Source: a virus. Taken from it: a stretch of 59,637 bases of DNA. Below, one piece after another: positions 3,959 to 58,358 of the stretch. The notes below the pieces were generated by a model that saw only the letters and a list, made by a program, of their open reading frames with translations, searched no databases and was not told the origin of the DNA. The stretch spans positions 1 through 59,637 of the IMG/VR virus record IMGVR_UViG_3300047562_002733; one strand, written 5' to 3'. The translations under genes and the position numbers were made by a program. Each line of letters starts with the position of its first letter. The first letter of the stretch is position 1.

Positions 3959-3980
3959 TGGGCGCTCCGTTTGGCCCAGT

Positions 3981-8853: not shown

Positions 8854-9753
8854 TTAAAGAGACATCTCGAACACGCTGAAGGCGTTGTCCACCTCTGCCT
8901 GCTCTGCCATCATCTTAGCACCTTCCACGGGAGACGCAAACCATGGCGGCAGTGTCAGCACTTCATGTTCGATCGCTGGCGGCTCCCAGGTTTTCGACTT
9001 CAGGCACTCGGCAAGAAGGTTCCTTGCCGTGGCAGTCTGTTGCAAGCCTTCATAAATCATTTCTTCGGACACCTCGAATATCTTGGTGGCATACGGCGCT
9101 GTCCGTTCGATACCGACAAAAACAAATGACGCCGGCATCTTGTAGGCAGCCTGAGTGCCCTCAACATACCATGCCGCCTGAAACAGGTAGTTCATTGAGC
9201 CAATTACTTTTTTGAGAAAGTCCTTGGAATCAACGCTGTCAGTTGTCTTCAAATCAAGAATGATTGCTCGATCATCTTCAAAAACAAGACGGTCAAGACG
9301 ACACTTACAGTCAAGACCATCAGCCTCCCAGTACAGGCTTAGCTCGTTGAACTTCCTGTAGTCTTTCTGGGCAGGATCAAACCATTCAAGCCTTTGCAGC
9401 GACTCAGCCATGCCATGAACAGCATCCCAGGAGGCATACTGATCGGTTTTGGACAGAATCGTTTTACCCTTCTGCTCTGCTCGCCATTCCTTGCCCTTGC
9501 TCGTCGTAAGAGAAATGTCGTCCGGCTTAAGTACAAAGCCGCGATCAAACTGCTCTTTCCCTTCCAGCACAAGGCAATGCAGCGCAGAGCCGATTTGCAT
9601 TGATATTGTAGGACTAAATTTGCGCTTGGTTGCCGCCTGGTAATGAGCAGGTGACTTCAGGATGTGCTTGACGTATGACTGCGCATAGCCAGGGTCTGCA
9701 CGGTAAGAGGCATCTGACTGCTCGTAGCTAATTGCAGTGGCGGGCACGACCAT
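8854..9753 (-). CDS. RecE/exonuclease VIII-like PDDEXK nuclease
   Basis: 299 aa from the ATG at 9753; the TTG one codon upstream is less likely. It shows MQIGSALHCLVLE, KCRLDRL, the metal site AIILDLKTTDS (D-x-K) and the following QAAWYVEG motif, as in exonuclease VIII/RecE-type phage nucleases. It would resect DNA ends for the annealase at 12623-13279. Together with RusA and SSB this is a complete recombination kit. Confidence 0.8.
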   Translation of the reverse strand: MVVPATAISYEQSDASYRADPGYAQSYVKHILKSPAHYQAATKRKFSPTISMQIGSALHCLVLEGKEQFDRGFVLKPDDISLTTSKGKEWRAEQKGKTILSKTDQYASWDAVHGMAESLQRLEWFDPAQKDYRKFNELSLYWEADGLDCKCRLDRLVFEDDRAIILDLKTTDSVDSKDFLKKVIGSMNYLFQAAWYVEGTQAAYKMPASFVFVGIERTAPYATKIFEVSEEMIYEGLQQTATARNLLAECLKSKTWEPPAIEHEVLTLPPWFASPVEGAKMMAEQAEVDNAFSVFEMSL

Positions 9754-9775
9754 CAAGACTTACGCTGCCGCCATT

Positions 9776-10192
9776 CTAGAGTAAGGCAATCTGAACGGTC
9801 CAAACAGAATCAGATTTCTTTGCCTTGTCCCACTCGACAAGCAATGTCGAGATCACGGAAACTCGATCGTCAGTCCAGAGCAACCCAGGAGAATGTTTTG
9901 ATGGTCCCGCCGCATCCATAAGGAATCCGGCAATGTTGTCAGCATCGCCCCTGCCTTCACCCCTGATGTTCAAGTACAAAGCAATAGGACCGTTTAAGGG
10001 CGGGTGATTCCACTGCTTTTGTAACTCATTCCTCATCTGACTCTGAGCACGTCGATAGCTTTCGGCCATGTAAGCGTGCCCAGACTTCGTCATCCTTGGC
10101 CTAGCCTTTGAGTGCAAAGGCATCTGAACAGATAGCACATAATCAGGAGAAACGATCGCCTTCACTATAGCGTCGGAAATACGACTGCTCAT
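9776..10192 (-). CDS. rusA: RusA-like Holliday junction resolvase
   Basis: 138 aa. It has the RusA features K-A-R-P-R near residue 30, the metal-binding GDADN (D83, D85) and TDDR (D108, D109). It cleaves four-way junctions before packaging and could act on recombination intermediates made by the neighbouring nuclease and annealase. Its 5' end overlaps a small upstream ORF. Confidence 0.88.
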   Translation of the reverse strand: MSSRISDAIVKAIVSPDYVLSVQMPLHSKARPRMTKSGHAYMAESYRRAQSQMRNELQKQWNHPPLNGPIALYLNIRGEGRGDADNIAGFLMDAAGPSKHSPGLLWTDDRVSVISTLLVEWDKAKKSDSVWTVQIALL

Positions 10193-12502: not shown

Positions 12503-12629
12503 TGATGTCGAAGTCCACTATTACGCCGTTGAACGCATTGACAAGGGCTGCCGCAGCAGCATCGAGCAGCCCCACAGTCTCCGTCACTGCAGACAATGGT
12601 CCGAGCGACGGATAGTCGCCGTCTACCAC
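12492..12629 (-). CDS. Small hydrophobic/acidic protein (45 aa)
   Basis: GTG start overlaps the annealase stop (GTGGTAG), and the stop lies 10 nt inside the sigma gene. The sequence VVDGDYPSLGPLSAVTETVG, then an Ala-rich helix and VIVDFDINEL, reads like a real protein. A competing frame at 12499-12687 is Arg/Cys-rich and less credible. Confidence 0.5.
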   Translation of the reverse strand: MVDGDYPSLGPLSAVTETVGLLDAAAAALVNAFNGVIVDFDINEL

Positions 12630-13279
12630 TGCTCGGCGTTGTCCTTTGGGGCGTTAGCCTCATTGAAGCTGGACACCCAAGCATCATCCTTTTCTGTCAG
12701 GCGCTTGATGCCAGCGTCGTACTTGCCCTTGAGTGCAGCAAGGAGCGCCTCGACGGAATGCGTCGTCAGACCGCGAGCGATGGCTGCCTCCATGAATTGC
12801 TCTTTGGTTGCACTCGTCGATACAATAGCCCTTTGAGCCACAGGCACAGCCTCCGTGGCATCGTTGTAGCCGCTTTCAACAGCAATCTTCGCCCAGAGCT
12901 CATAGGCAAGACCAAAGGTCATTGCCGCCGCCATGCACATCCCACGACGCTGGGTGTCAGTCACGTCGCGAGAGCTGATCTTCTCGTAGGGGATTGATTT
13001 ATTGCGGTTGTCCATCACCGCCTGCGGGACAGGAGGCGTGGTGGTCCCGTCAATGTGGCGGAACTGGATCATCAGATAACCACCCTCGCCTGGAGCGCGA
13101 TGAACCAGCCCGCCGTCATTATTTGGAATCGACTCCACACACCAACCGGGAGCGTGCTGATGCAGCAATTGCATTGTTCTTGCCCAGTTCACGTACTCAG
13201 CGCGATAACTGCCTGAGCCAATGGATTCGATCAGATCCTTGGTAACAACACCAGCCAGATTCGGAAGCTCTTGAGGCAT
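12623..13279 (-). CDS. ssDNA annealing protein, Sak3/DUF1071-like
   Basis: 218 aa. The segment PPVPQAVMDNRNKSIPYEKI... RRGMCMAAAMTFGLAYELWAKI matches the DUF1071 pattern (MD--n-ai---I------R--vkA-A--fGL---LW), a family of phage annealases related to Rad52/Sak proteins. It pairs resected strands, so with the RecE-like nuclease it can recombine short repeats. Confidence 0.72.
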   Translation of the reverse strand: MPQELPNLAGVVTKDLIESIGSGSYRAEYVNWARTMQLLHQHAPGWCVESIPNNDGGLVHRAPGEGGYLMIQFRHIDGTTTPPVPQAVMDNRNKSIPYEKISSRDVTDTQRRGMCMAAAMTFGLAYELWAKIAVESGYNDATEAVPVAQRAIVSTSATKEQFMEAAIARGLTTHSVEALLAALKGKYDAGIKRLTEKDDAWVSSFNEANAPKDNAEQW

Positions 13280-13964: not shown

Positions 13965-14972
13965 ATGACCTTCGCCGTCTCCAAAAGCAAGGACTGGAAC
14001 CTTGGGCGATTTCTTAAGGTTCCCTTCCAATTGATCTGTTGCGACCAGCTCAGTTCCAATGCGAGGCTGCTCCTGATGCTTCTTTTCAATCAGGTCGGCT
14101 TCAGGCCAGTCAGCTTCGCGACGCTCGACCGCCTGCTTGGCGTCCATCGCTCCACCAGGATCCGTTGCCTGGCGGAGCTCAAGGAGCTTGGTTTTGTTTC
14201 TGGCGCCAACAATCACATCGTCCTTGAGGACCCGATCCCTGTCTTGGAACGCCTTGGGAAGGCTGCCTCCAAGGCAAAGGCCGAGGCGGACGAGATCATT
14301 GAGCACTTTCGTGCGCCGGAGGTTAAGCCGCAAAACGAGTCCCCTAAAGAGGACTCAAAGACTGACTACTTAAAGAAGGCCACAGACGCCTGGAACCTTT
14401 ATCGCCCGAAGGACTACCAAAAGGTTCGGCGTATGTCGGTCCCAGTTGTCAAGGCTGTTGATCTTCACATGCGTGAGCTAGGTGTCAGTGCTCACGACTA
14501 CGAAGAGTTCTTTTCTGTGCTGAAGGCTGGTGTTGAGAAGTCTGCCTTTTGGTCAAAGACCAACAGTAACAAAACACTGCAGGCGATTACTGGCGTCGGA
14601 CAACCAACAGACAAGAAGAAAAAGAATGTCTACGAACTGTTCAATGTTGGCCTGGAGGCACCTGCTGAGCCAACGAAAGAGGAAGAACGTTCTGATACCG
14701 TTGTCTATCCTGTTGAGTACCGTGAATTGATCAATGAATATACTGCTGCTCAGTTCACATACGAACAAGCCTACTACGCCAGGGACATCAAGGACTACCA
14801 TGAGGCGTATGTTATTCGCACAGAGCAGGCGCTCAAGGACGTAGGGCTTGACCCCGCCAAGTTCAAGAAGAAGTCTTGCCTGAGTAGCTGGCCAACAGAC
14901 ACGCCAGACCCAGAAGAGTACCGCGAGCCTGACTGGCTGTTCGAGGATGAGGTGAACAATGGATACCACTGA
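13965..14972 (+). CDS. Winged-helix replication initiator/organiser-like protein
   Basis: 335 aa. Residues about 26-85 form a helix-turn-helix domain (LSSNARLLLMLLFNQVG, FATLDRLLGVHRSTRIRCLAELKELGFV), as in phage replisome organisers. A long charged region follows, then a C-terminal domain with no clear family. It is next to the iteron cluster and overlaps the helicase gene by 14 nt. It is the best candidate to bind the dyads and load the helicase. Confidence 0.7.
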   Translation: MTFAVSKSKDWNLGRFLKVPFQLICCDQLSSNARLLLMLLFNQVGFRPVSFATLDRLLGVHRSTRIRCLAELKELGFVSGANNHIVLEDPIPVLERLGKAASKAKAEADEIIEHFRAPEVKPQNESPKEDSKTDYLKKATDAWNLYRPKDYQKVRRMSVPVVKAVDLHMRELGVSAHDYEEFFSVLKAGVEKSAFWSKTNSNKTLQAITGVGQPTDKKKKNVYELFNVGLEAPAEPTKEEERSDTVVYPVEYRELINEYTAAQFTYEQAYYARDIKDYHEAYVIRTEQALKDVGLDPAKFKKKSCLSSWPTDTPDPEEYREPDWLFEDEVNNGYH

Positions 14973-48718: not shown

Positions 48719-48746
48719 GGTACCTAGGCGATTCGCGCCAGGTTCC
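48719..48746. repeat. Decayed palindrome copy (R0)
   Basis: GGTACCTAGG as in copy R5, followed at the expected distance by TCGCGCCAGGTTCC, which is the right arm with an insertion. Left arm lost. Confidence 0.45.
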
Positions 48747-48750
48747 GACC

Positions 48751-48777
48751 TTGATTTGCTGTATTATTTTATACAAT
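48751..48777 (+). promoter_or_regulatory. Promoter with overlapping palindrome
   Basis: TTGATT, 15 bp, TACAAT. The inverted pair TGTAT/ATACA overlaps the -10, a possible operator. Lies just before copy R1. Confidence 0.45.
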
Positions 48778-48796
48778 AAACAATACACATGGCACA

Positions 48797-48827
48797 TGCG
48801 AACGGTCCCCAGGGCCAATTGATCGCA
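48797..48827. repeat. Array palindrome R1 (class I)
   Basis: Core GGTCCCCAGGGCC; inner arms TGCGA/TCGCA; left outer arm missing. Confidence 0.85.
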
Positions 48828-48842
48828 GGTTCCCTGCCGTGC

Positions 48843-48848
48843 TACACT
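48843..48848 (+). promoter_or_regulatory. TGCTACACT extended -10
   Basis: TACACT preceded by TGC. TTGATC, supplied by the palindrome itself, lies 18 bp upstream as a -35. Same box recurs in several cassettes. Confidence 0.5.
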
Positions 48849-48876
48849 AAACCAGAACCTTAAGAAGGCCAGACTC

Positions 48877-49194
48877 ATGCCCCTCCAGCTCCCCGTTAAC
48901 AGCACGCTGTCTCGACTGGCAGCCTTCCGCACTAGCACCCAGCGACGCATGATGCAGGCAGGCCTGCCCGCTCTGTTTGTAGCCACCGAGCTCCCCGACG
49001 TGGCACGTTGTATCGGGGCTGCCGAGTACACCCTTAAGTCGTCCTGGTGGGAGTGCCTTACCGATGATGTGGCACTCTGCATCAGGGCTGCCAGGTATGG
49101 GCACAAGCCGTCCTGGTGGGAGTGTCTTACCAGTGGTTCAACCAGTGCCCTACTCGCGGAAGCCGAGCACCGAGCCAAGGCTCTGTGGGACTAG
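48877..49194 (+). CDS. Cassette protein with tandem 23-residue repeat (105 aa)
   Basis: Two adjacent 23-residue units, DVARCIGAAEYTLKSSWWEC-LTD and DVALCIRAARYGHKPSWWEC-LTS, follow a basic helical start. Conserved Cys/Trp suggest a small repeat fold like helical solenoids. Flanked by palindromes R1 and R2 with identical cores. Confidence 0.65.
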   Translation: MPLQLPVNSTLSRLAAFRTSTQRRMMQAGLPALFVATELPDVARCIGAAEYTLKSSWWECLTDDVALCIRAARYGHKPSWWECLTSGSTSALLAEAEHRAKALWD

Positions 49195-49209
49195 ATCCCC
49201 TGATTGAAC

Positions 49210-49252
49210 GGAACCTGCGAACGGTCCCCAGGGCCAATTGATCGCAGGTTCC
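49210..49252. repeat. Array palindrome R2 (class I)
   Basis: 11-bp perfect arms GGAACCTGCGA/TCGCAGGTTCC around core GGTCCCCAGGGCC. Between convergent genes; the next stop codon starts at the base after it. Confidence 0.9.
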
Positions 49253-49405
49253 TTAGCAGATCACCCAGGCCAGCAGCAGGATCGCGGCGATGGCCAGGGC
49301 GTTGCGTTGCCGGCGGAGTTCCTGCACCGACTCTTGCTGGTCGTCGATCAGGGCCAATGCCTCAGTGATGATCTCGGCCTTGCTGTTGCGCTCAGTGATG
49401 TTCAT
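49253..49405 (-). CDS. Cassette membrane protein (50 aa)
   Basis: Start at ATG 49405 after AGAGGG. Helical MNITERNSKAEIITEALALI..., then a C-terminal membrane segment NALAIAAILLLAWVIC. Own minus-strand promoter box TACACT at 49433-49428. Confidence 0.6.
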   Translation of the reverse strand: MNITERNSKAEIITEALALIDDQQESVQELRRQRNALAIAAILLLAWVIC

Positions 49406-49445
49406 GGGATGATCCCTCTCTTGTGGTAGTGTAGCACGAACGGAT

Positions 49446-49488
49446 GGAACTTGCGAACGGTCCCTAGGGCCAATTGATCGCAAGTGCC
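49446..49488. repeat. Array palindrome R3 (class I)
   Basis: Arms GGAACTTGCGA/TCGCAAGTGCC, core GGTCCCTAGGGCC. Between divergent genes. Confidence 0.9.
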
Positions 49489-49500
49489 TGGCTGACGTGT

Positions 49501-49506
49501 TACACT
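49501..49506 (+). promoter_or_regulatory. TGTTACACT extended -10
   Basis: Just after R3, 28 nt before the next ATG. Confidence 0.45.
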
Positions 49507-49533
49507 CATTCCGCAACCGACAGGATTCGATCC

Positions 49534-49707
49534 ATGCCTTATCAGTCCTCCCGTCCCTTCCACGTCCTGGCCGCCGTGATCGGCCTGGGATCCATTGGCC
49601 TGGCTCTGGCGATGGACTTCGGAGGGGTCCCCGCTGCTCGCTTGGCTGCTCGCTGTGATGCCATCAAGTGCGAGGTGGTGCGAGTCGCAAGCATACCCCT
49701 TCGCTGA
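49534..49707 (+). CDS. Cassette membrane protein (57 aa)
   Basis: ATG after GACAGGA. MPYQSSRPFHVLAAVIGLGS and IGLALAMDFGG give one N-terminal membrane helix, followed by a Cys-containing tail. Flanked by R3 and R4 (same core). Confidence 0.6.
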   Translation: MPYQSSRPFHVLAAVIGLGSIGLALAMDFGGVPAARLAARCDAIKCEVVRVASIPLR

Positions 49708-49713
49708 TTGGAT

Positions 49714-49756
49714 GGAACTTGCGAACGGTCCCTAGGGCCAATTGATCGCAGGTTCC
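49714..49756. repeat. Array palindrome R4 (class I)
   Basis: Left arm of the R3 type, right arm of the R2 type; core GGTCCCTAGGGCC. Confidence 0.9.
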
Positions 49757-49779
49757 GCAGATCCGTTGCTGTCACTGCC

Positions 49780-49989
49780 ATGTTCCGCACCATCCTCGCC
49801 CTTCCACGCGCCGCCTGGGAGACGCCCCTGTTCTACGGCTACCTGCTGGCCAAGGGTTACAACCTGAGCCGTAGAGACGTGTTGCTCTCCCTGGCTAGGG
49901 TCCGCCCCTGGGAGAACACCGATAAGCGTGTGGCTCCCTGGCGTCTCGTTCGAGACGTTGCGGTCCTGGGGCCGATCGGTTACAATTAA
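49780..49989 (+). CDS. Cassette protein (69 aa)
   Basis: ATG at 49780 (MFRTILALPRAAWETPLFYG). No clear ribosome site. GYNLSRRDVLLSLARVRPWE may be a helix-turn-helix. Ends just before R5. Confidence 0.55.
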   Translation: MFRTILALPRAAWETPLFYGYLLAKGYNLSRRDVLLSLARVRPWENTDKRVAPWRLVRDVAVLGPIGYN

Positions 49990-49991
49990 GG

Positions 49992-50034
49992 GGAACCTGC
50001 GAACGGTACCTAGGGCCAATTGATCGCAAGTGCC
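49992..50034. repeat. Array palindrome R5 (class I)
   Basis: Left arm of the R2 type, right arm of the R3 type; core GGTACCTAGGGCC. Its last base is part of the stop codon of the leftward gene. Confidence 0.9.
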
Positions 50035-50303
50035 TACTTCAGCGTGCGACGGCCACCTTCGCCGTTTCTGGCCCTGTTCTTGCTGCGGTTTTCCAAGACA
50101 AGGCGCCCATCCTTGGTGTGGCTCATGTCTCTGTTACCCATCCTGCCTTCAAGGCCCATTGCTCGCTTCTTGCGACGACGTTCATTATATCTCTCGCGTT
50201 CTCGATCTGTCTTGCGCCGGTCTGCTTCATATTGCTTTTTCTTTTCATACGCTTCCGGATTCTTCTTGTAGTAGTCCATCGTATTGCGCTTCTTCTGGGC
50301 CAT
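50034..50303 (-). CDS. Cassette copy of the NPEAY...SKNRARNG basic protein
   Basis: 89 aa. Same motif order as 19439-19741 (KKNPEAYEKKKQY, RRRKKRAMG, DMSHTKDGRLVLENRSKNRA). This cassette carries a paralogue of a late-operon gene. Possible -10 upstream on the minus strand: GAATAAAG. Confidence 0.75.
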   Translation of the reverse strand: MAQKKRNTMDYYKKNPEAYEKKKQYEADRRKTDRERERYNERRRKKRAMGLEGRMGNRDMSHTKDGRLVLENRSKNRARNGEGGRRTLK

Positions 50304-50339
50304 GAATCCAGTGCTGATTCTTTATTCTTCCGCAGCGTG

Positions 50340-50375
50340 ATCGCGAGCGGTCCCCATGGCCATTGCTCACGATCT
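50340..50375. repeat. Array palindrome R6 (class II)
   Basis: Arms GATCGCGAGC/GCTCACGATC, core GGTCCCCATGGCC. Divergent junction. Confidence 0.9.
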
Positions 50376-50412
50376 CGGCTCTGCCGCTGCCATCTCCCAC
50401 CGCGACTCCATT

Positions 50413-50607
50413 ATGGTCACCCTGGCATTCTTCGATCCCCGCTACTCGATCCCCTTAGCGCAGACTACCTACTGTGAACCTGAATGGCGTTACGCAGCAG
50501 CAGCAGCGCTCCGACGTGGCAGCGCCTACGAGGCCTGGCGCGATGGTAGACTGATCGCCAGGGGCGGTCCCCGCTCCATACTGCCGCCGTGCTATTATAA
50601 ATCGTGA
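50413..50607 (+). CDS. Cassette protein (64 aa)
   Basis: MVTLAFFDPRYSIPLAQTTY..., then WRYAAAAALRRGSAYEAWRD. An in-frame ATG inside R6 (50356) would add 19 residues encoded by the repeat. Stop TGA overlaps the start of R7. Confidence 0.55.
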   Translation: MVTLAFFDPRYSIPLAQTTYCEPEWRYAAAAALRRGSAYEAWRDGRLIARGGPRSILPPCYYKS

Positions 50608-50641
50608 TCGCGAGCGGTCCCCATGGCCATTGTTCACGATC
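50606..50641. repeat. Array palindrome R7 (class II)
   Basis: Arms GATCGCGAGC/GTTCACGATC, core identical to R6. TGCTATTAT lies just upstream. Confidence 0.9.
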
Positions 50642-50664
50642 AAACCACAACCGGAGCCATTCCA

Positions 50665-50973
50665 GTGATTCTGCACTTCGCTGCATCAAACGACACAGAC
50701 GGCAACCCTCGTCGGGTGTTTGTCTACGTGACAGAAGACGGTCAACCAATCGCTGCCTGGCCAGAAGGATACTCCGGCCATGATGCAGTTCCAGGCCCCC
50801 TGAGGGGGCTTGCGTGGCAGGCTATGCAGCGGTCGATCATGATCACCGTTGACGAATACCTGCAGGCCCTGGCGCTGCCGCGTCCGATGTACTACAATCC
50901 AGAGCACTTCCAATCGGCGGCCTGCCTGCAGCGCCACATTAAGATGGGAGTTGTGGCCCTGGCGCCCGCGTGA
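50665..50973 (+). CDS. Cassette protein (102 aa)
   Basis: GTG start after the conserved leader CGGAGCCATTCCA. VFVYVTEDGQPIAAWPEGYS and ITVDEYLQALALPRPMYYNP: small mixed fold, unrecognised. Stop TGA overlaps R8. Confidence 0.6.
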   Translation: MILHFAASNDTDGNPRRVFVYVTEDGQPIAAWPEGYSGHDAVPGPLRGLAWQAMQRSIMITVDEYLQALALPRPMYYNPEHFQSAACLQRHIKMGVVALAPA

Positions 50974-51007
50974 TCGCGAGCGGTCCCTAGGGCCATTGTT
51001 CACGATC
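50972..51007. repeat. Array palindrome R8 (class II)
   Basis: Arms GATCGCGAGC/GTTCACGATC, core GGTCCCTAGGGCC. Confidence 0.9.
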
Positions 51008-51011
51008 ATGC

Positions 51012-51017
51012 TACACT
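51012..51017 (+). promoter_or_regulatory. TGCTACACT extended -10
   Basis: Immediately after R8. Downstream leader holds a GGGGGCTGGGCCCC hairpin before the ATG. Confidence 0.45.
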
Positions 51018-51060
51018 GTTCTCCGGGGGCTGGGCCCCGTCCATTTCATAGGGTCATCCC

Positions 51061-51261
51061 ATGACAACCGCTCACCAGTTCGCTGCAGTAGGCTCCGAGA
51101 CTTGGCACCTGAACTGCGCCAAGGTCTGGCAGGAAAACATGGAGGTCTGGAGGGTTCTCCGGGACGCTCGGCAGTACCGCTCAGGCATGAACCTCTGCTA
51201 TGAAGCCTTCTCCGAGCATATTCACGCCGTCATGCGAGCCGACAGCCGGCCTGAGCTTTGA
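51061..51261 (+). CDS. Cassette protein (66 aa)
   Basis: ATG after TAGGG. Helical (KVWQENMEVWRVLRDARQYR, CYEAFSEHIHAVMRA). Stop TGA overlaps R9. Confidence 0.6.
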   Translation: MTTAHQFAAVGSETWHLNCAKVWQENMEVWRVLRDARQYRSGMNLCYEAFSEHIHAVMRADSRPEL

Positions 51262-51295
51262 TCGTGAGCGGTCCCTGGGGCCATTGTTCACGATC
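51260..51295. repeat. Array palindrome R9 (class II)
   Basis: Arms GATCGTGAGC/GTTCACGATC, core GGTCCCTGGGGCC. Confidence 0.9.
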
Positions 51296-51324
51296 AATCC
51301 ATCGTCATCATCGGAGCCAATCCA

Positions 51325-51645
51325 ATGGAGAGCACCATCCAAGAACTGGCCTATCAGGCTGCCCCGTTTCAGATCGCCGACCCTGAGGCTTGGCTGTGGG
51401 TTGATGGCAACTGTATCTGGCTGATGTTCCAGACTGACTGGCGTTCGCTGTGGAACCAGATCAAGTGCAGTAGTGGAGTGCTGGATTGTCTTGATGTGGC
51501 GGCCGGCCAAGACCCTGACGAGGGCATCAACTGGAAGGACTCCTCAGTGTTCACTGAGTGGCTCAGACTGCCCGAGGAGCTCGAAAAGGACATCAAGGCT
51601 GGCGGCCACTACATGTGGCGCTACCTGCTACACTGCAGCGTATGA
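51325..51645 (+). CDS. Cassette protein (106 aa)
   Basis: Leader CGGAGCCAATCCAATG. Acidic, Trp-rich (EAWLWVDGNCIWLMFQTDWR, EWLRLPEELEKDI). Last codons include TACACT, which may serve as the next promoter. Flanked by R9 and R10 with identical cores. Confidence 0.65.
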   Translation: MESTIQELAYQAAPFQIADPEAWLWVDGNCIWLMFQTDWRSLWNQIKCSSGVLDCLDVAAGQDPDEGINWKDSSVFTEWLRLPEELEKDIKAGGHYMWRYLLHCSV

Positions 51646-51679
51646 TCGTGAGCGGTCCCTGGGGCCATTGTTCACGATC
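51644..51679. repeat. Array palindrome R10 (class II)
   Basis: Sequence identical to R9. Confidence 0.9.
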
Positions 51680-51704
51680 AAACCATCCCACTGGAGCCAA
51701 TCCA

Positions 51705-51935
51705 ATGCAAGTCACCGCCAAGTCCCGCAAGGATGACATCTGGGCCGCCTATGAAGCCCGCCTGCAGCAGCCGACCACCTGGGGCGATGTCTGGGGGCTG
51801 GCCGTCAGCACCGCCCGCACCATCGCCAAAGAAGTGCCCTTGGCCATGCGCGACGCTTACAACGCTGGAAGTGCAGTCAGGAACTGGGTTCTCAGCGTGG
51901 TTGACGAGCTCAACCGCCCGCTGCTAAAATCCTGA
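51705..51935 (+). CDS. Cassette protein (76 aa)
   Basis: Leader TGGAGCCAATCCAATG. Helical, amphipathic (DDIWAAYEARLQQPTTWGDV, TIAKEVPLAMRDAYNAG). Stop TGA overlaps R11. Confidence 0.6.
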   Translation: MQVTAKSRKDDIWAAYEARLQQPTTWGDVWGLAVSTARTIAKEVPLAMRDAYNAGSAVRNWVLSVVDELNRPLLKS

Positions 51936-51969
51936 TCGTGAGCGGTCCCAGGGGCCATTGTTCACGGTC
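51934..51969. repeat. Array palindrome R11 (class II)
   Basis: Arms GATCGTGAGC/GTTCACGGTC, core GGTCCCAGGGGCC. Convergent junction; both flanking genes use a TGA in an arm. Confidence 0.9.
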
Positions 51970-52201
51970 ACGCCGCGTTGATCGCCGCCTGGAGCTCCTC
52001 CAGGGCATTCAGAAGCTCTTGCGCCTGCTCGTGCATACCCTCCAGCCACCATGGGTCCGGGCTCCAGGCAGGGCGGTCTGTGCCGTTCTTCCAGGCGAGG
52101 TTAGAAGCGATCATCACCTCCAGGGTAGCGGAAGCCAGAGCGTCCTCTGCGGCGTCCCGCTGCTGCAGGCATTCAACCAAAAACTCTTTAGTGGCAGACA
52201 T
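51968..52201 (-). CDS. Cassette protein (77 aa)
   Basis: ATG after AAAGGAG. Helical, with Ala/Glu/Leu heptads (MSATKEFLVECLQQRDAAED, LLNALEELQAAINAA). Minus-strand TGCTACGAT box about 60 nt upstream. Stop TGA lies in the right arm of R11. Confidence 0.6.
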   Translation of the reverse strand: MSATKEFLVECLQQRDAAEDALASATLEVMIASNLAWKNGTDRPAWSPDPWWLEGMHEQAQELLNALEELQAAINAA

Positions 52202-52274
52202 GGATTTACTCCTTTGGTCTGAACTGACTGTAGGACTGGAAGCCCCCAGGCCGCCCGATCGTAGCACAACGGAT

Positions 52275-52310
52275 GATCGTGAGCGGTCCTAGGGGCCATT
52301 GTTCACGATC
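52275..52310. repeat. Array palindrome R12 (class II)
   Basis: Arms GATCGTGAGC/GTTCACGATC, core GGTCCTAGGGGCC. Divergent junction. Confidence 0.9.
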
Positions 52311-52312
52311 GC

Positions 52313-52341
52313 TTGACAGGCACGACCGCAGCCAGTACCAT
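52313..52341 (+). promoter_or_regulatory. Sigma-70 promoter right after R12
   Basis: TTGACA, 17-bp spacer, TACCAT. The clearest full promoter in the array. Confidence 0.65.
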
Positions 52342-52362
52342 TCGCTTAGTGGAGGCATTCCA

Positions 52363-52587
52363 ATGATCACCGACCACGGCACTCAGCAGGTTGCACAGTG
52401 GAGACTCGACGAACTCCATAGTCTCAAAGAAAAGCTCCGCAACGCGCTGGCCGATGCCCTTGAACTTGAGCGCACCGCCGACCCAGGAGTCCGATACGCA
52501 ATGATCGCCGGTCGCCTGACGGCTGCCGTTGACAATGCCCGGATTACCCTTGACTGCTATCTGCCGGATGATCGTGAGCGGTCCTAG
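52363..52587 (+). CDS. Cassette protein (74 aa) whose stop lies inside R13
   Basis: ATG after GTGGAGG. Helical (WRLDELHSLKEKLRNALADA, IAGRLTAAVDNARITLD). The frame enters R13 and encodes DDRERS before the TAG in the palindrome core, so five or six residues come from the repeat. Confidence 0.6.
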   Translation: MITDHGTQQVAQWRLDELHSLKEKLRNALADALELERTADPGVRYAMIAGRLTAAVDNARITLDCYLPDDRERS

Positions 52588-52606
52588 TGGCCAATTGTTC
52601 ACGATC
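52570..52606. repeat. Array palindrome R13 (class II)
   Basis: Core GGTCCTAGTGGCC with AATT spacer; 37 nt. Confidence 0.9.
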
Positions 52607-52632
52607 AAACCACACCCCATCGGAGCCAATCC

Positions 52633-52986
52633 ATGTCCGTCTATCTCAACACCTATGAAGTCTGGCAGGTCTACGGCGGCCCGGAAGAGGGTGGCTGGTG
52701 GTTTGAAGCCGGCACGCCAATGCAGTCGATCCTGGTGAGCCACGACGACCTGGAAGATTGGCTGGAAAACACTCCGGAGGAAGAGCAGGCGGCAATGCGC
52801 GAGCATGCCACACTGGGTTACACTCAGGGCAAAGCCCCAACCCCCAAAAAGACCGGCTATGGCGGTTACACGTTTGCCCCAGGGAGCGATGAGCCCCTCA
52901 CTTACCAGCAGGACAACGACTATCGGTCCTGGTTTGAGGACTCCTACGCTGAGCCCTTCCCTGTGGAGCGTCCATGCTATTGTTGA
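52633..52986 (+). CDS. Cassette protein (117 aa)
   Basis: Leader CGGAGCCAATCCATG. Acidic, aromatic: YEVWQVYGGPEEGGWWFEAG, DLEDWLENTPEEEQAAMREH and a Tyr/Pro-rich end. Unrecognised. Ends 5 nt before R14. Confidence 0.65.
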   Translation: MSVYLNTYEVWQVYGGPEEGGWWFEAGTPMQSILVSHDDLEDWLENTPEEEQAAMREHATLGYTQGKAPTPKKTGYGGYTFAPGSDEPLTYQQDNDYRSWFEDSYAEPFPVERPCYC

Positions 52987-52991
52987 CGCGT

Positions 52992-53027
52992 GAGCGTGAG
53001 CGGTCCTAGAGGCCATTGTTCACGATC
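52992..53027. repeat. Array palindrome R14 (class II)
   Basis: Arms GAGCGTGAGC/GTTCACGATC, core GGTCCTAGAGGCC. Followed by CTCGGCTCTGCC, also found after R6. Confidence 0.9.
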
Positions 53028-53066
53028 TCGGCTCTGCCCCCTGTCGAATCCCGCCCTGCTAGTGCT

Positions 53067-53243
53067 ATGACCATCACCGTCTACTACGTTCCCTCCACTA
53101 GTGCTACCGGCGTCACCGTGAAGGTCGATCCCTCACTGCCCGAGGAGGAGGCCCGCACCCTGGCTATCCGTAGAGTCCGCAACCGACTGAAGGGTCAGCA
53201 GCGTGCTCGATTCCACGCTCTTGCCACCTACGTGCATCCCTGA
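53067..53243 (+). CDS. Cassette protein (58 aa)
   Basis: ATG at 53067. MTITVYYVPSTSATGVTVKV then a basic helix AIRRVRNRLKGQQRARFHAL: small beta-alpha protein, perhaps nucleic-acid binding. Confidence 0.55.
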   Translation: MTITVYYVPSTSATGVTVKVDPSLPEEEARTLAIRRVRNRLKGQQRARFHALATYVHP

Positions 53244-53252
53244 TAGCATGAT

Positions 53253-53289
53253 GATCGTGAGCGGTCCTGGAGGCCAGTTGTTCACGATC
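53253..53289. repeat. Array palindrome R15 (class II)
   Basis: Arms GATCGTGAGC/GTTCACGATC, core GGTCCTGGAGGCC. Confidence 0.9.
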
Positions 53290-53323
53290 TCGCGCTAGCA
53301 TCCACATCATTGCCGATCCGACC

Positions 53324-53617
53324 ATGCTGCAGTTCGACCGCTACTACGGGCTTTATGCTCAGGTTCCTTTTTCTTGGGTCCCGTGGTTCCTGAACAACAC
53401 CGCCAAGACTGGGCTGTATGGCTGGCTTAGATTGGGCAGCTACTGCCTGTGCTTGAACATGGGATTGGAGCCTGACGAGAGAAGATTGGCCAGCTTTGGC
53501 CTGTTGATGCTGACGCGGCCAGAGACGCAAGAAGAACAGCAGGACAGAGAAGAAGCGGAAGCCGAAGAGGCTTTCATGGAGCGAGAGCTCAACCGCTACA
53601 CTGAATGGTATTATTAA
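53324..53617 (+). CDS. Cassette protein (97 aa)
   Basis: MLQFDRYYGLYAQVPFSWVP..., a hydrophobic middle (GLYGWLRLGSYCLCLNMGL) and a Glu-rich helix (EEQQDREEAEAEEAFMEREL). The last codons contain TACACT and TATTAT. Confidence 0.6.
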   Translation: MLQFDRYYGLYAQVPFSWVPWFLNNTAKTGLYGWLRLGSYCLCLNMGLEPDERRLASFGLLMLTRPETQEEQQDREEAEAEEAFMERELNRYTEWYY

Positions 53618-53618
53618 C

Positions 53619-53667
53619 TTTCGTGAGCGTGAGCGGTCCTGCGGGCCAATTGTTCACGGTCACGAAA
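53619..53667. repeat. Array palindrome R16 (class II, extended arms)
   Basis: 16-bp arms from TTTCGTGAGC to the matching CACGAAA, core GGTCCTGCGGGCC. Convergent junction. Confidence 0.9.
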
Positions 53668-53845
53668 CTTCACATTGCATCCAGGCATCCTCCAGATCCA
53701 TGACCCCGCAAAGCACGTCCTGTAGCGGGCCGCTCATGAGCTCATCAAAGGTTTCGTCGTCGATGGTTTTGCGGGCTTCTTCCATGTGCTTGTGCAGTGC
53801 TTCGCAGAACTCATGGAGGTTGGCGATCTTGTCAAAGGCGGTCAT
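53660..53845 (-). CDS. Cassette protein (61 aa)
   Basis: The leader CGGAGCCATTCCAATG occurs here on the minus strand. Acidic helices (HEFCEALHKHMEEARKTIDD). Stop TGA in the right arm of R16. Confidence 0.6.
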   Translation of the reverse strand: MTAFDKIANLHEFCEALHKHMEEARKTIDDETFDELMSGPLQDVLCGVMDLEDAWMQCEVS

Positions 53846-53881
53846 TGGAATGGCTCCGTTGATGGTTTGATTCTACACCGT

Positions 53882-53917
53882 GAGCGTGAGCGGCCCTGCG
53901 GGCCATTTGCTCACGAT
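53882..53917. repeat. Array palindrome R17 (class II)
   Basis: Arms GAGCGTGAGC/GCTCACGATC, core GGCCCTGCGGGCC. Both wobble positions are restored to perfect pairs here. Divergent junction. Confidence 0.9.
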
Positions 53918-53952
53918 CTCGCGCTCGTCGCGCCGCCCAACCCTGCCCCGTT

Positions 53953-53968
53953 ACACTTCGTTACAGTA
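53953..53968 (+). promoter_or_regulatory. GTTACACT and GTTACAGT boxes upstream of the PcfJ-like gene
   Basis: Two TTACA boxes 10 bp apart; a further TGGTATGAT box lies at about 54006. Which is used cannot be told by eye. Confidence 0.35.
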
Positions 53969-54036
53969 AACTTTTACAACAGGCCCTGCTTTGAGGCCGG
54001 CGGGTGGTATGATTGTATCGCCAACAGGAGGCATCC

Positions 54037-55830
54037 ATGCACTTCACTCTTCCCGAAAACCTGAAGTCTCAGATTCTTGCCTATGATCCGGCGATGAAGG
54101 CGCTGGCAGCAGCTCAAGTTAGCCAAGCAAAAAAAGAAGGCAAACCCAATAAGTTTAAAAGGTTTGGGGTGCCCGACAATCTTTTTCCTGCCTTTATTGC
54201 TACGCCGGAAGAACAAAAGGCTACCGCTGTTGCTATTAACAACTGCCAGGAATCGAACGGCTGGTCAAAGGTTCATCCCGAGAAAAAGGCGATCCTGGCT
54301 TACTACAACAACGTTTGGACGGCAGTGTGGGAAGATGACGAACACGGCATCGGCGTTACCTATTTGTCAAAAGGAACTGGCGGCAAGTTCGTTAATGACA
54401 TTCTTCGGCAATACTTTTCCAATGACGACAGCATATGGCAAGTTACCACCGAGCATGAAGTTACCTATAGCAGCAACCCAAGAATGAAATGGAACAAGGC
54501 TTGCTGCACGCTAACCAAAGAGCAACGCATTGAAGCCGCTTTGGGTGACAGCTATCGTAACATGTCCTATGCTTACCGGCACGAATGTAAGACTCATCTG
54601 CCCTCAGTGCAATCACTGCTTAGTGTCAATACCCACAGGATCTATCGCCAGAGAATGACCGCCAATGGTGCCAGCAGAGCTTCAGGAATCAATTTCAGTG
54701 GTAAAGGACGCATAAATGGTCTTGGCCTTGGTGGCAACAAGCTCCTTGAGGTTGCGCCTTTTTCTGTATTGATGTTCCTGGCAAACAGCGTCAATACCGA
54801 GTGCTACTACCCCCTCCATAGCATGGAGCCAATTGCCGCCACCCTTCAGAAGGGCTGCGAGGGTGGTTTCTATAAAGGGCGGCTAACGCTTAAAGGCTTC
54901 AATTGGTTCTGTTCTTCGATAGTTCCAGAGTTTTCAAAGTATGAAGACGTAACATACACTGATCGTATCATCAAAAAGACTGACACACCTACTATCAGGC
55001 GATACCAGCAGGAAGCGGTTGATCAAATTAACGCTTGTTTGTTCGACTCCAACAATGAGGTTCTTGCTGAGCCGATCCAAAGGGCCGTTAGCACGGGCGT
55101 TTACATTCTGATGATCGCCCAATTCTTCGATACTTTCTATCCTAACGCTTCAGTCGATCATATTCACCAAGTCGCTGGCAGGGTCATCAATAACAAAAAA
55201 CGAAAGTTTATCATGCGCGATGTTCACGCCATTAACAAGAACGTCTTTCCTGAGGCAATGAATTGGCTGACTAGCAATGCGCCAATACAAACAGTGCTAG
55301 GAATGCTGATTCCCGAAGAGTACAATGGAGAATCGATTAACATAAACATTGACTCTATCCGCATCATTGAGCGACTGCTAAACACTGAAGAATACCAAGA
55401 AGAACTGAAGCCCCCCAGGCGTTGGCGTGATCTTCATGACTACGTTATGTCGAAAGAGTGGAAGATCAAAACGCCAAATGAATTGCTGCCACAGGACCTG
55501 TTTCCTGAACCAGTAAAAGATGGACAGTGGACATTCTTTCAACCTCGCGATGTTCACCAACTAGCGGACTGGGGCCGCGCTGTTCGCAACTGCGTCGGAG
55601 GCACGCACTACGCCCAAGGCATCAAAAAGAAAAACCACTTTATCGTGCTAGCAATGGTGAACAGGGTGCCTATGGTTACTATTCAGTTGTCAGTTCAGAA
55701 TGGCGTGATGAATGTCGATCAAATCTCAAAGGTATCCAACGAGCTCCTTAACCCTGTTGAGAGGCTGTCTTATCAATCAGCCTTCAGCAATGCCCTGAAG
55801 ATACGCGAGAATCAACTAAAAGCAGCATAG
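54037..55830 (+). CDS. PcfJ-like protein (597 aa)
   Basis: ATG at 54037 after CAGGAGG. The C-terminal region (about 500-590) has the PcfJ pattern: LADWGRAVRNCVGGTHYAQG, then FIVLAMVNRVPMVTIQLSVQ and NVDQISKVSNEL. The long N-terminal part is unrecognised. PcfJ-like proteins occur on plasmids and phages; their role is unclear. By far the largest gene of the array; it has its own terminator. Confidence 0.7.
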   Translation: MHFTLPENLKSQILAYDPAMKALAAAQVSQAKKEGKPNKFKRFGVPDNLFPAFIATPEEQKATAVAINNCQESNGWSKVHPEKKAILAYYNNVWTAVWEDDEHGIGVTYLSKGTGGKFVNDILRQYFSNDDSIWQVTTEHEVTYSSNPRMKWNKACCTLTKEQRIEAALGDSYRNMSYAYRHECKTHLPSVQSLLSVNTHRIYRQRMTANGASRASGINFSGKGRINGLGLGGNKLLEVAPFSVLMFLANSVNTECYYPLHSMEPIAATLQKGCEGGFYKGRLTLKGFNWFCSSIVPEFSKYEDVTYTDRIIKKTDTPTIRRYQQEAVDQINACLFDSNNEVLAEPIQRAVSTGVYILMIAQFFDTFYPNASVDHIHQVAGRVINNKKRKFIMRDVHAINKNVFPEAMNWLTSNAPIQTVLGMLIPEEYNGESININIDSIRIIERLLNTEEYQEELKPPRRWRDLHDYVMSKEWKIKTPNELLPQDLFPEPVKDGQWTFFQPRDVHQLADWGRAVRNCVGGTHYAQGIKKKNHFIVLAMVNRVPMVTIQLSVQNGVMNVDQISKVSNELLNPVERLSYQSAFSNALKIRENQLKAA

Positions 55831-55836
55831 CCAACC

Positions 55837-55860
55837 GGGGGCAATCGCCCCCCTTTTTTT
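55837..55860 (+). terminator. Terminator after the PcfJ-like gene
   Basis: Stem GGGGGC/GCCCCC with an AATC loop, followed by T8. Confidence 0.9.
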
Positions 55861-55876
55861 TATAGAAACAGATGGT

Positions 55877-55914
55877 GAGCGTGAACAACAGCAGCGCGAC
55901 CGTTGTTCACGATC
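55877..55914. repeat. Array palindrome R18 (class III)
   Basis: 13-bp arms GAGCGTGAACAAC/GTTGTTCACGATC around a different loop (AGCAGCGCGACC); the GGTCC-GGCC core is gone. Confidence 0.85.
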
Positions 55915-55946
55915 TCGCTCCGCGCCCGCAAACGGCCCCTGCCCGC

Positions 55947-55952
55947 TATACT
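55947..55952 (+). promoter_or_regulatory. GCTATACT -10 box
   Basis: TATACT, 21 nt upstream of the ATG at 55974. Confidence 0.5.
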
Positions 55953-55973
55953 ATCTTCAGTGTATTCAAGTCA

Positions 55974-56240
55974 ATGCCTAATCTTCAACAGCGTGTAATG
56001 GGACCAATCAACGAAGCAGAGGCTCTTGATATCGTTGAGTTTATGGGCAAGAACATCAGTAAAAACGCTCTTATCATCAGGCAATCGCTGCCGGAGTGGA
56101 CGCAACATAATTGCCATCTAATGGCGCGAGCCTTGAAGAAGCATCGTTACTACAGCCATAATAACATATATGGAAGCACTATTCGCTCTCTCGCTAACAC
56201 AATTGCTATTGCAGAGCATCGCCTAGCAAGTCGATCTTGA
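55974..56240 (+). CDS. Cassette protein (88 aa)
   Basis: MPNLQQRVMGPINEAEALDI..., ALIIRQSLPEWTQHNCHLMA, LANTIAIAEHRL: helical. Stop TGA overlaps R19. Confidence 0.6.
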   Translation: MPNLQQRVMGPINEAEALDIVEFMGKNISKNALIIRQSLPEWTQHNCHLMARALKKHRYYSHNNIYGSTIRSLANTIAIAEHRLASRS

Positions 56241-56273
56241 TCGTGAACAACAAAAGGCAGGTTGTTCACGGTC
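56239..56273. repeat. Array palindrome R19 (class III)
   Basis: Arms GATCGTGAACAAC/GTTGTTCACGGTC, 9-nt loop. Confidence 0.85.
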
Positions 56274-56350
56274 ACGCGACGCGGCGATCCTACCACTCCC
56301 GGCCCTCTTTTGTTGCAATACTTAATATTTGCGAGGTGTGGGTGGCCTGC

Positions 56351-56356
56351 TATACT
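56351..56356 (+). promoter_or_regulatory. TGCTATACT extended -10
   Basis: 25 nt upstream of the next ATG; well-formed extended -10. Confidence 0.55.
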
Positions 56357-56381
56357 GCGAGGGCACCAGAGGGCTTGACCC

Positions 56382-56987
56382 ATGCAAATCACTCACGGCA
56401 GCATCTTGGCCATCTTTTTTATGGCCAGCGAAGCAGAAAAAGAGGAAGGAAGGGATTGGTATCCCCGTGCCAATCGCATCTCAATCAGCATCGCTAACAG
56501 CTACGTTCTGCCGCATCTTTCCCATACCGCTGCAGGCGTGCTGGCAGCCCTTAGCCCTAACAATAAGTGGGACAGAAACGTCCGTGATGCTGAAGCCTTG
56601 ATTAAGGCTTTTTATGCTGGCGCTGATCCTGACACCATTAAAGTTTCAACCTTCGGGAAGAACAAAAAGAAGGCGGTTCAAATACTGAAAGGCGATCACC
56701 CGCTTAATGTGCTTGGCGGGCTTAAGGTTCGCGCCTTTTATCGGTGCATTATTGGTGCCGACGCCGTTTGTATTGACGGCCATGCCTACAGCATTTGGAC
56801 CGGCCAGCGTGTCCCTACCACCAAAACGCCTAGTATCAGCGAAAAATTGTACAACAAAATCGCTGGAGACTACCGCCTAGCAGCAACGCAAATTAGCGAG
56901 ATTACCGGCGAGCAATACACTGCCGCCGAGGTTCAGGCGATCACCTGGGTTGTTTGGCGTAACATGCACGCAAAGGTGGCAGGCTGA
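56382..56987 (+). CDS. DUF7178-like / HhH-type phage protein (201 aa)
   Basis: AAGVLAALSPNNKWDRNVRD, KKKAVQILKGDHPLNVLGGL, VRAFYRCI and CIDGHAYSIWTGQ follow a pattern seen in small phage proteins resembling HhH DNA glycosylases (A-LSP---W--N, KA--IL-G, vL-G-K---F---I, D-Ha). Family number from memory. Enzymatic activity is not established. Confidence 0.55.
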   Translation: MQITHGSILAIFFMASEAEKEEGRDWYPRANRISISIANSYVLPHLSHTAAGVLAALSPNNKWDRNVRDAEALIKAFYAGADPDTIKVSTFGKNKKKAVQILKGDHPLNVLGGLKVRAFYRCIIGADAVCIDGHAYSIWTGQRVPTTKTPSISEKLYNKIAGDYRLAATQISEITGEQYTAAEVQAITWVVWRNMHAKVAG

Positions 56988-57289
56988 TGTGGTGGGCGTA
57001 TGATCCTGAAGGCGAACTAAAGGCACTGCCCCCTGGTCCGCTATTGCTGCCAGCATTGATGATAAGCGCGGTTGCGTTTATCTTTTCATCTGTATTTACA
57101 GATGAGCAATCGCTGGAATCTTTTGCTGCTGTTGCTACTTCACCTAGGTACAAAAGGGATCTTGATAGATACCTAGCTTTGGCCAGTAAATCTGCAGATG
57201 CAGAACAGACCTTGAGTGATTCTGAGTTCTACGAACTAAGAGCACTTACCGAACGGGTTTACAACGACAAAAACCGCTTCATCCCCTAG
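56987..57289 (+). CDS. Membrane-anchored protein (100 aa)
   Basis: TGATG overlap with the upstream gene. One membrane helix (LLLPALMISAVAFIFSSVF) then acidic helices. The only clear two-gene unit of the array's right part. Confidence 0.6.
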   Translation: MWWAYDPEGELKALPPGPLLLPALMISAVAFIFSSVFTDEQSLESFAAVATSPRYKRDLDRYLALASKSADAEQTLSDSEFYELRALTERVYNDKNRFIP

Positions 57290-57309
57290 ACAGGCGGGCG
57301 CCCATCGGC

Positions 57310-57315
57310 TACACT
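57310..57315 (+). promoter_or_regulatory. GCTACACT -10 box with downstream hairpin
   Basis: TACACT, then a CCGGGGCACACCCCGA hairpin before the AGGAG site. Confidence 0.45.
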
Positions 57316-57355
57316 CAGATCACCGGGGCACACCCCGACCCACAGGAGCAAATCC

Positions 57356-57721
57356 ATGTTTGAGAATCACAAGGCTTACAAGGCTGACACCGGCATCGGC
57401 AAGCGGCTCGCCCGTGTGCAAGAACTGATGACCACCATCGAAACCCTGGAGCGGGAGCTTGACGAGCAAAAGGCCTATTTGCTCGGCCATGCTATCCGTA
57501 GCGAACTGCATTCTATGCAGTTTGAGCATATGAAGGCAACAGTTTGCGAGACAACCCGCTGGATTTACAGCGATTCTGTCAAGCAATCAGAGAAGCGCCT
57601 AAAGGCAAAGAAGGCCCGCGAGCAGGAAGATGGCACTGCAATCGGCACAAAGAGTCAACATATTCGCGTAACCTTCAGCGCAAAGGGCATCCTGGCCGAA
57701 CAAGCAAAAGCGGAGGCGTGA
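57356..57721 (+). CDS. Hypothetical coiled-coil protein (121 aa)
   Basis: ATG after AGGAGCAAATCC. Helical (GKRLARVQELMTTIETLERE), basic tail with KRLKAKKAREQEDG. Unrecognised. Confidence 0.6.
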   Translation: MFENHKAYKADTGIGKRLARVQELMTTIETLERELDEQKAYLLGHAIRSELHSMQFEHMKATVCETTRWIYSDSVKQSEKRLKAKKAREQEDGTAIGTKSQHIRVTFSAKGILAEQAKAEA

Positions 57722-57873
57722 TGACATTCTCTGTCTTCAAATTAGACGAAGAGGGCTATGAGTTGACCCTCGCGAGCAGGCTGCAAACGCAAGAACAGGC
57801 CGAAATTATGGTAGACGACCTGTCAGAGAAGTGGCCTCACGCCTATATCGACTACAAGGAAGACAACCGGTAG
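57721..57873 (+). CDS. Hypothetical small protein (50 aa)
   Basis: ATG overlaps the upstream stop (TGATG). MTFSVFKLDEEGYELTLASR, then VDDLSEKWPHAYIDYKED. The longer open frame upstream is in a shadow frame. Confidence 0.6.
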   Translation: MTFSVFKLDEEGYELTLASRLQTQEQAEIMVDDLSEKWPHAYIDYKEDNR

Positions 57874-57879
57874 CAAATT

Positions 57880-57902
57880 GGGGCCATTCAGGCCCCTTTT
57901 TT
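57880..57902 (+). terminator. Terminator at the right end of the array
   Basis: Stem GGGGCC/GGCCCC, loop ATTCA, then T6. Confidence 0.9.
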
Positions 57903-57925
57903 ATGCTTACATCGAAAAAAATCGT

Positions 57926-57959
57926 GACCGTGAGCAGGGCGGAGCCGCTGTTCACGATC
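57926..57959. repeat. Array palindrome R20 (class III)
   Basis: Arms GACCGTGAGCAG/CTGTTCACGATC with two mismatches, loop GGCGGAGCCG. Last copy; no gene follows directly. Confidence 0.8.
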
Positions 57960-58358
57960 GCGCCCACGCCGGGGCACCCGATCCGGGTTCGCGATCACGG
58001 GGGAGCGGGGGAAACGGGGTATATAATAGTATTCCGAAAGCGGCTTAGGGATACGAGGTTAGGAGGTTGTGAGTATTTTTGCTTAAGATAATCGTGAGTT
58101 ATAAGTTTCGAGCCAACAGAGGAGGGGAGAAATTTGTGCGGCAGTGTGTTATAAGCCTGGCGGCGCCATTTCCGGTCCGCGATATACGTTATATATAGGT
58201 ACTTTAGTCGAAGGCTGCCAGGACGAACACTTATACCTTATCGCCTAGTCGGTCCGCGATCTGGCATGACGTGTGTATATAGACTGCCATGTCAGATCGA
58301 CGACGGGCTTCAGTAAGCTACCCCTAGCCCGAGAATGCTATACCTTATATATAGGTAC
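57960..58358. other. Non-coding stretch with internal direct repeats
   Basis: No convincing gene. Contains TATAAT at 58022-58027, an 11-mer CGGTCCGCGAT at 58173 and 58250, and a 14-mer TTATATATAGGTAC at 58189 and 58345, plus TATACCTTAT twice. May encode RNAs, hold several promoters or be a cis-acting site. Confidence 0.5.

Follow-up and report, generated by a model that had tools for sequence, protein, structure and literature searches.

Palindromic elements between small genes as probable junctions for the exchange of accessory modules in a family of cyanophages

A virus record of 59,637 bases (IMG/VR IMGVR_UViG_3300047562_002733, positions 1–59,637; hereafter, the window) carries 20 palindromic elements, R1–R20, between 48.7 and 58.0 kb. 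The locus raises the question of what these palindromes do, namely, whether they are junctions for the exchange of genes or signals for their expression. An earlier note on this DNA described the array and proposed that the palindrome is the boundary of a unit by which small genes are gained, lost, and inverted. The observation was confirmed, the 20 palindromes being found among small genes as described, and the interpretation was supported insofar as it can be judged from aligned arrays of related phages. It was considered likely, at roughly 70%, that the elements are junctions where short-homology recombination swaps accessory-gene modules.

Order and orientation of cassettes among related phages

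Relatives were sought through exact-pattern scans of IMG/VR and through searches with one cassette family, family K, and a neighbouring tail protein. Elements were present in 12 IMG/VR phages, the window phage included (11 further contigs, one of which, G012, is only a probable carrier). On comparing the proteins of all intervals, homologous cassette families were found to recur with differing order and neighbours in at least 10 arrays. Family K, the most widespread cassette, occurred in ten arrays with changing neighbours. The homologues of G006 intervals 4, 5, 8, 9, 10, and 11 are ordered 5, 4, 8, 10, 9, and 11 in G001, and in G002 the counterparts of G006 intervals 3 and 4 have exchanged places. 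In the case of the closest pair, G007 and G008 (~90% identical), the arrays read K-4-5-6-7 and K-7-unique-4, respectively, with the shared cassettes being ~90–93% identical. The eight late genes adjoining the array are colinear among the window, G007, and G001.

Cassettes also changed strand and surroundings. Family K is inverted relative to the elements in G003, where the homologous DNA aligns in the inverted sense, and a second family lies on the plus strand in G003 (interval 3) and on the minus strand in G006 (interval 7). The cassette between R18 and R19 is flanked by elements of one type (type 2, described below) in the window and by type-1 elements in G007 and G008, with the arms unchanged. 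Moreover, none of the 12 nucleotide alignments of at least 180 bp inside the arrays spanned two cassettes. Of their 24 ends, 12 were located within 5 bp of an element, compared with 10% expected. The comparison of relatives for cassette presence, absence, and inversion thus gave variable order, changed strands, and alignment ends at palindromes. The genes do not keep a fixed order among relatives, and the palindromes are sited between genes there too, which backs the view that the palindrome may serve as the unit boundary for gaining, losing, and inverting small genes.

One junction could be followed to the base. The G008 element E1, between K and cassette 7, reads AAGCCGA-GATCGTGA-GCGGTCCG...; its left part is that of G007 E3 (between K and 4), and from GCGG on it resembles G007 E6 (between 6 and 7), so that the switch point falls where the left arm ends. 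Three other comparisons between these two phages were compatible with the core remaining with the right-hand gene. The evidence that arms travel together with genes was at most suggestive (P ~0.04).

The terminase, primase, and tail genes of the window are consistent with a tailed phage, and its nearest named phages are S-CRES and S-CBS2. The window DnaB-type helicase is 45–51% identical to those of the Synechococcus phages S-CRES1, S-CRES3, and S-CBS2, the last of which has been grouped with cyanosiphoviruses in the literature. The array carriers form one family of phages infecting Synechococcus-type cyanobacteria. Besides the window phage, they comprise G001 (L009/L057), G002 (L046), G003 (L051/L245/L272), G006 (L224/L270), G007 (L234), G008 (L248/L271), G009 (L278/L363), G010 (L280/L364), G011 (L281/L365), the L302/L392 contig, and probably G012 (L303). 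Additional contigs stop shortly past a first element. A search of 50,697 named phages gave matches in S-CRES1 and S-CRES2 alone, with two elements each, and those of S-CRES1 enclose gp61 and gp62; S-CRES3 and S-CBS2 were searched and had zero copies. When genome contigs (84,980 genomes) were scanned, the matches listed were single, scattered, and chance-like, and none of them was cyanobacterial; through these listed matches, the scan covers in part the objection that the palindromes are common chromosomal repeats.

Structure of the elements and the genes between them

The earlier note had assigned the hairpin core GGTCC-N4-GGCC to all of R1–R17. The exact core was found in 15 copies, all on the plus strand between 48804 and 53647, with zero on the minus strand or elsewhere in the window, while R5 (GGTAC) and R17 (GGCCC) each departed from it by one base. 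Approximately 0.5 exact cores were expected on both strands (mean of 200 order-1 Markov shuffles; maximum 3), and when one mismatch was allowed, 40 were observed against 12.2 expected. The longer complementary arms reported around the core are present, but they fall into two classes. Class-A outer arms, GGAACYTGCGA/TCGCARGTKCC, are carried by R1 (48791–48833), R2 (49210–49252), R3 (49446–49488), R4 (49714–49756), and R5 (49992–50034). The decayed copy was also found to be real; it lies at 48719–48746 on the plus strand (GGTACCTAGGCGATTCGCGCCAGGTTCC), is like the right half of R5/R1, and resembles R1–R5. Class-B outer arms, TGATCGTGA/TCACGATCA, are carried by R6 (50338–50375), R7 (50605–50642), R8 (50971–51008), R9 (51259–51296), R10 (51643–51680), R11 (51933–51970), R12 (52274–52311), R13 (52569–52607), R14 (52991–53028), R15 (53252–53290), R16 (53624–53662), R17 (53881–53919), R18 (55876–55915), R19 (56238–56274), and R20 (57925–57960). 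All 20 are given on the plus strand. In R18–R20 (type 2), the outer arms are retained, and a longer perfect stem of unrelated sequence replaces the core. A covariance model of the element scored 45–61 bits on the canonical strand for nearly all type-1 class-B copies, and no comparable site was found outside these copies in the ten records searched.

Across phages, the arm GANCGYGA was nearly invariant on both sides in 82 class-B elements, partly by construction since these elements were found by that same arm. Arm similarity was 93% within and 92% between phages, and core similarity was 74% within and 65% between. Neighbouring cores were more alike than under shuffled order (P = 0.0002). The core varies from ~16 to 25 bp among copies and phages, and the whole element measures 36–43 bp. 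Three phages have class-A arms: the window phage, G003, and the L302 phage. In each of the first two, class-A and class-B elements have a common core type. A second element block of G003 (L272, minus strand, ~2600–4450) has class-A arms like those of R1–R5 and the G003-type core, and it flanks a second family K copy. The type-1 elements of any one array are co-oriented, although the genes occupy either strand, and the elements are confined to one genome region. In G009 (L363 3532–8849), the array adjoins the same late genes, with the elements and family K reversed relative to them, as read from the contig orientations.

Gene calling placed at most one gene, on either strand, in each interval from R1 to R17, in line with the earlier claim that nearly every interval holds exactly one; for R4–R5, R6–R7, R8–R9, and R15–R16, the codon-based caller gave no gene, and an open frame was used. 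In the first part of the array, the genes are located at 48877–49194 (R1–R2, plus, although the strand is not certain; 105 amino acids (aa), without family), 49253–49405 (R2–R3, minus, 50 aa), 49534–49707 (R3–R4, plus, 57 aa), and 49780–49989 (R4–R5, plus, 69 aa, open frame). The R5–R6 gene (50034–50303, minus, 89 aa) belongs to phrog_6437, and a phrog_6437 gene stands where class-A elements give way to class-B elements both here and in G003 (L272 2307–2582). Further plus-strand genes are located at 50413–50607 (R6–R7, 64 aa, open frame), 50665–50973 (R7–R8, 102 aa, with the TGA of the R8 arm as its stop codon), 51061–51261 (R8–R9, 66 aa, open frame, stopping in the R9 arm), 51325–51645 (R9–R10, 106 aa, stopping in the R10 arm), 51705–51935 (R10–R11, family K, 76 aa), 52363–52587 (R12–R13, 74 aa, an open frame where the caller favoured a 38-aa minus frame), 52633–52986 (R13–R14, 117 aa, with a G002 homologue aligning precisely element-to-element), 53067–53243 (R14–R15, 58 aa counted from ATG), and 53324–53617 (R15–R16, 97 aa, with its homologue in G007 interval 9). 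On the minus strand are 51968–52201 (R11–R12, 77 aa) and 53660–53845 (R16–R17, 61 aa, stopping in the R16 arm). R11 is a convergent junction, and both flanking genes stop in its arms. Beyond R17, a PcfJ-like protein is encoded at 54037–55830 (R17–R18, plus, 597 aa) and recurs in the array region of four phages, with homologues in G001, G006, and L303. It is followed by the R18–R19 gene at 55998–56240 (plus, 80 aa) and by a DUF7178 gene at 56382–56987 (plus, 201 aa), the first of four genes within R19–R20.

Some gene calls are doubtful, such as G007 interval 7, where a conserved frame lies on the opposite strand. Nearly all cassette proteins are of unassigned function. Family K had no convincing match in Pfam, and searches of named phages and plasmids gave zero matches; it was rejected as an array protein candidate, the structure prediction being two helices with low pTM. 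A cassette protein of G003 (L272 1486–1899, minus) matches Kyanoviridae Gp96 (Pfam PF23790), and thus one cassette belongs to a family that T4-like cyanophages also have.

Proposed exchange and rival explanations

A module is proposed to hold a single small gene (type 1) or a few (type 2) and to be flanked by the conserved arm in inverted copies. The comparison of arrays shows that whole modules are gained, lost, reordered, and now and then inverted among related phages, the joins lying at the palindromes. The exchange would most likely proceed via homologous recombination or single-strand annealing at the 36–43 bp repeats during mixed infection. It could be carried out by the phage's own Sak-type single-strand annealing protein (12623–13279), PDDEXK exonuclease-like protein (DUF3799; 8854–9756), and RusA-type junction resolvase (9776–10192), all encoded on the minus strand of the window. 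Since the left and right arms are mutually inverted copies, a module should be joinable in either orientation, and recombination between direct repeats would keep all elements co-oriented. The arm TGA doubles as a stop codon for genes on both sides; across eight arrays, 24 of the 50 called genes, from either strand, ended at it, and most others stop at most 20 bp away.

Sak exceeded the cut-off in the window, G003, G006, S-CRES1, and S-CRES3 and was weaker in G009 and G012. In the 14 records searched, several of which are 70–93 kb and some of which are fragments, no tyrosine recombinase (PF00589), serine recombinase, or Y1 transposase (TnpA-REP) was found, the control genomes being positive for each; a Y1 transposase could reside in the host genome instead. 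As these enzymes were not found there and Sak was present, short-homology annealing appears to be the most economical mechanism. The protein encoded at 13965–14972, directly before the DnaB-type helicase, gave weak helix-turn-helix matches and is a candidate arm binder.

Several points weigh against exchange by short homology. The exchange is read from the comparison of arrays, and precise placement was obtained for one crossover only. Most junctions come from metagenome contigs, where misassembly at a repeat could account for an individual join; repeats of 36–43 bp are short for such an error, however, and distant phages also differ in order. Some absences may be missing contig ends. Moreover, arm conservation between phages exceeds the requirement of homology within an array, and each phage has a uniform core, which could point to a binding protein.

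Among the rival explanations, the one that survives best, although it is held to be improbable, is that the palindromes serve first of all as regulatory hairpins (5′ leaders or insulators beside a promoter) kept for expression. Shuffling would then be a by-product of shared sequence between genes, as has reportedly been proposed for the repeated promoter early stem-loops (PeSLs) of T4. The −10-like motif TANNNT peaks 14–17 bp before the left arm, at 16 of 71 flanks compared with ~3 expected from the remaining flank, and thus some elements may double as leader hairpins. Type-2 stems differ yet pair well, so pairing seems to be kept, and genes end at elements and start just after them. However, a good promoter is missing at most elements, and the element orientation is uniform even beside reversed genes. 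A consensus scan found none of the 20 elements to be terminator-like, and ordinary intrinsic terminators are present upstream of R18 (55837–55853, plus) and R20 (57880–57896, plus); a terminator role was not supported. Hairpin stability showed no strand bias across phages, and type-1 pairing showed no excess covariation in an alignment that is imperfect in the inner helix. Accordingly, a role confined to RNA was set aside. A known RNA family was also discarded because Rfam matched the array region just three times, each time far under the gathering score. The palindrome could nevertheless be a regulatory hairpin that supplies homology, rather than the active site itself.

It is more doubtful that the array is a dedicated site-specific system resembling integrons or Cre-lox, in which a phage-encoded protein would bind the inverted arms and the asymmetric core would be the site of cassette exchange by an unrecognised enzyme. 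The inverted 11-bp arms do flank an asymmetric core in a single orientation per array, one core type per phage extends across the two arm classes, and the G007/G008 core seems to stay with the right-hand gene, with a precise switch in the left arm. The core length is, however, unusual in its variation for a strict crossover site, and the recombinases and transposase sought in the 14 records were missing. It would likewise be a long shot that the array is an integrase-free phage counterpart of the integron, with an unrecognised dedicated protein that reads the inverted arms together with the phage-specific core and is active in swapping single-gene modules. The cores would then form a recognition code, and this code would set which phages can share cassettes.

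Very little likelihood was given to an assembly artefact, that is, chimeric contigs fused at short repeats. Contigs of the group (L283, L285, L313, L317, L353, L356, and L358) often stop ~10–130 bp from the first element, reflecting either assembly broken by repeats or population variation there. However, a contig of the window phage from a second sample matches it at 100% identity across 11,442 bp, passing through R1 and R2 and stopping at 49443, just before R3. Another contig is identical to G008 as far as its first element, and the isolates S-CRES1 and S-CRES2 carry elements as well. Transposon-like repeats (REP or MITE) inserted between genes without moving them are just as implausible, for the copies are many, intergenic, and palindromic but are uniformly oriented and kept to one region, the elements form the boundaries of the cassettes that move, and no Y1 transposase was found in the 14 records.

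Comparison with known systems

PeSLs (Arbiol 2010; Comeau 2014) are reportedly promoter-terminator composites in T4-like myoviruses. They are the nearest known kind, with two of their features, the terminator and the T4-like carrier, missing here. In both systems, stem-loops are repeated among the small accessory genes of a plastic region, in association with single-gene shuffling among relatives. Unlike in PeSLs, the window phage is S-CBS2-like, the elements lack a terminator and have a two-level structure of arm and core, and the cassettes lie in either orientation; as for the early promoter that forms part of PeSLs, a −10-like motif is enriched before the left arm here but present at a minority of copies. 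The earlier note had called the array independent of T4-type cassettes, for which support comes from sequence and organisation, not from mechanism. The passage of PMC4503421 that cites T4 PeSLs describes them as intergenic stem-loops tied to modular shuffling.

In cluster K mycobacteriophages, the start-associated sequences (SAS/ESAS) are a 13 bp repeat, GGGATAGGAGCCC, located at the start codon and mostly fixed with a gene family (PMC3203893). Similar to the present elements, they are repeats with inverted halves beside a subset of small accessory genes, but their sequence differs, and the elements here lie between genes and serve either side. Many dyad-symmetric copies in one phage genome are also known from cluster O mycobacteriophages, whose 17-bp repeats occur genome-wide and partly inside genes, their orientation being without meaning (PMC4351075). 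The array differs from invertible cassettes of serine recombinases and from REP/RAYT systems in that the respective enzymes were not detected in the 14 phage records, the host genome being a possible location of the latter.

Like integron cassettes with their attC sites, the array has single-gene intervals, co-oriented imperfect palindromes, and variable order, and in one phage pair the site remains with one of its two flanks. Unlike in integrons, the genes are often reversed, no integrase was found in the 14 records, and no attI was seen. The RYYYAAC/GTTRRRY boxes of attC are absent, the arms here being GANCGYGA or GGMACYTGCGA in sites of 36–43 bp. With no integrase found in these records and no attC boxes at the sites, the array does not qualify as an integron.

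Phage morons are single accessory genes with their own signals between conserved genes, and they are not known to be arrayed with shared boundary elements. The gain and loss of small accessory genes by phages is usually visible only as scars, whereas the unit, its borders, and its joins are explicit here and repeated dozens of times. As S-CRES1 and S-CRES2 are isolated members, rates, breakpoints, and required enzymes can be measured. The elements also offer a simple guide to the accessory genes of these phages, which can be searched for between them. In this family, whole genes are swapped, moved, and flipped at the palindromes, although no recognisable integrase or transposase was found in the phages examined.

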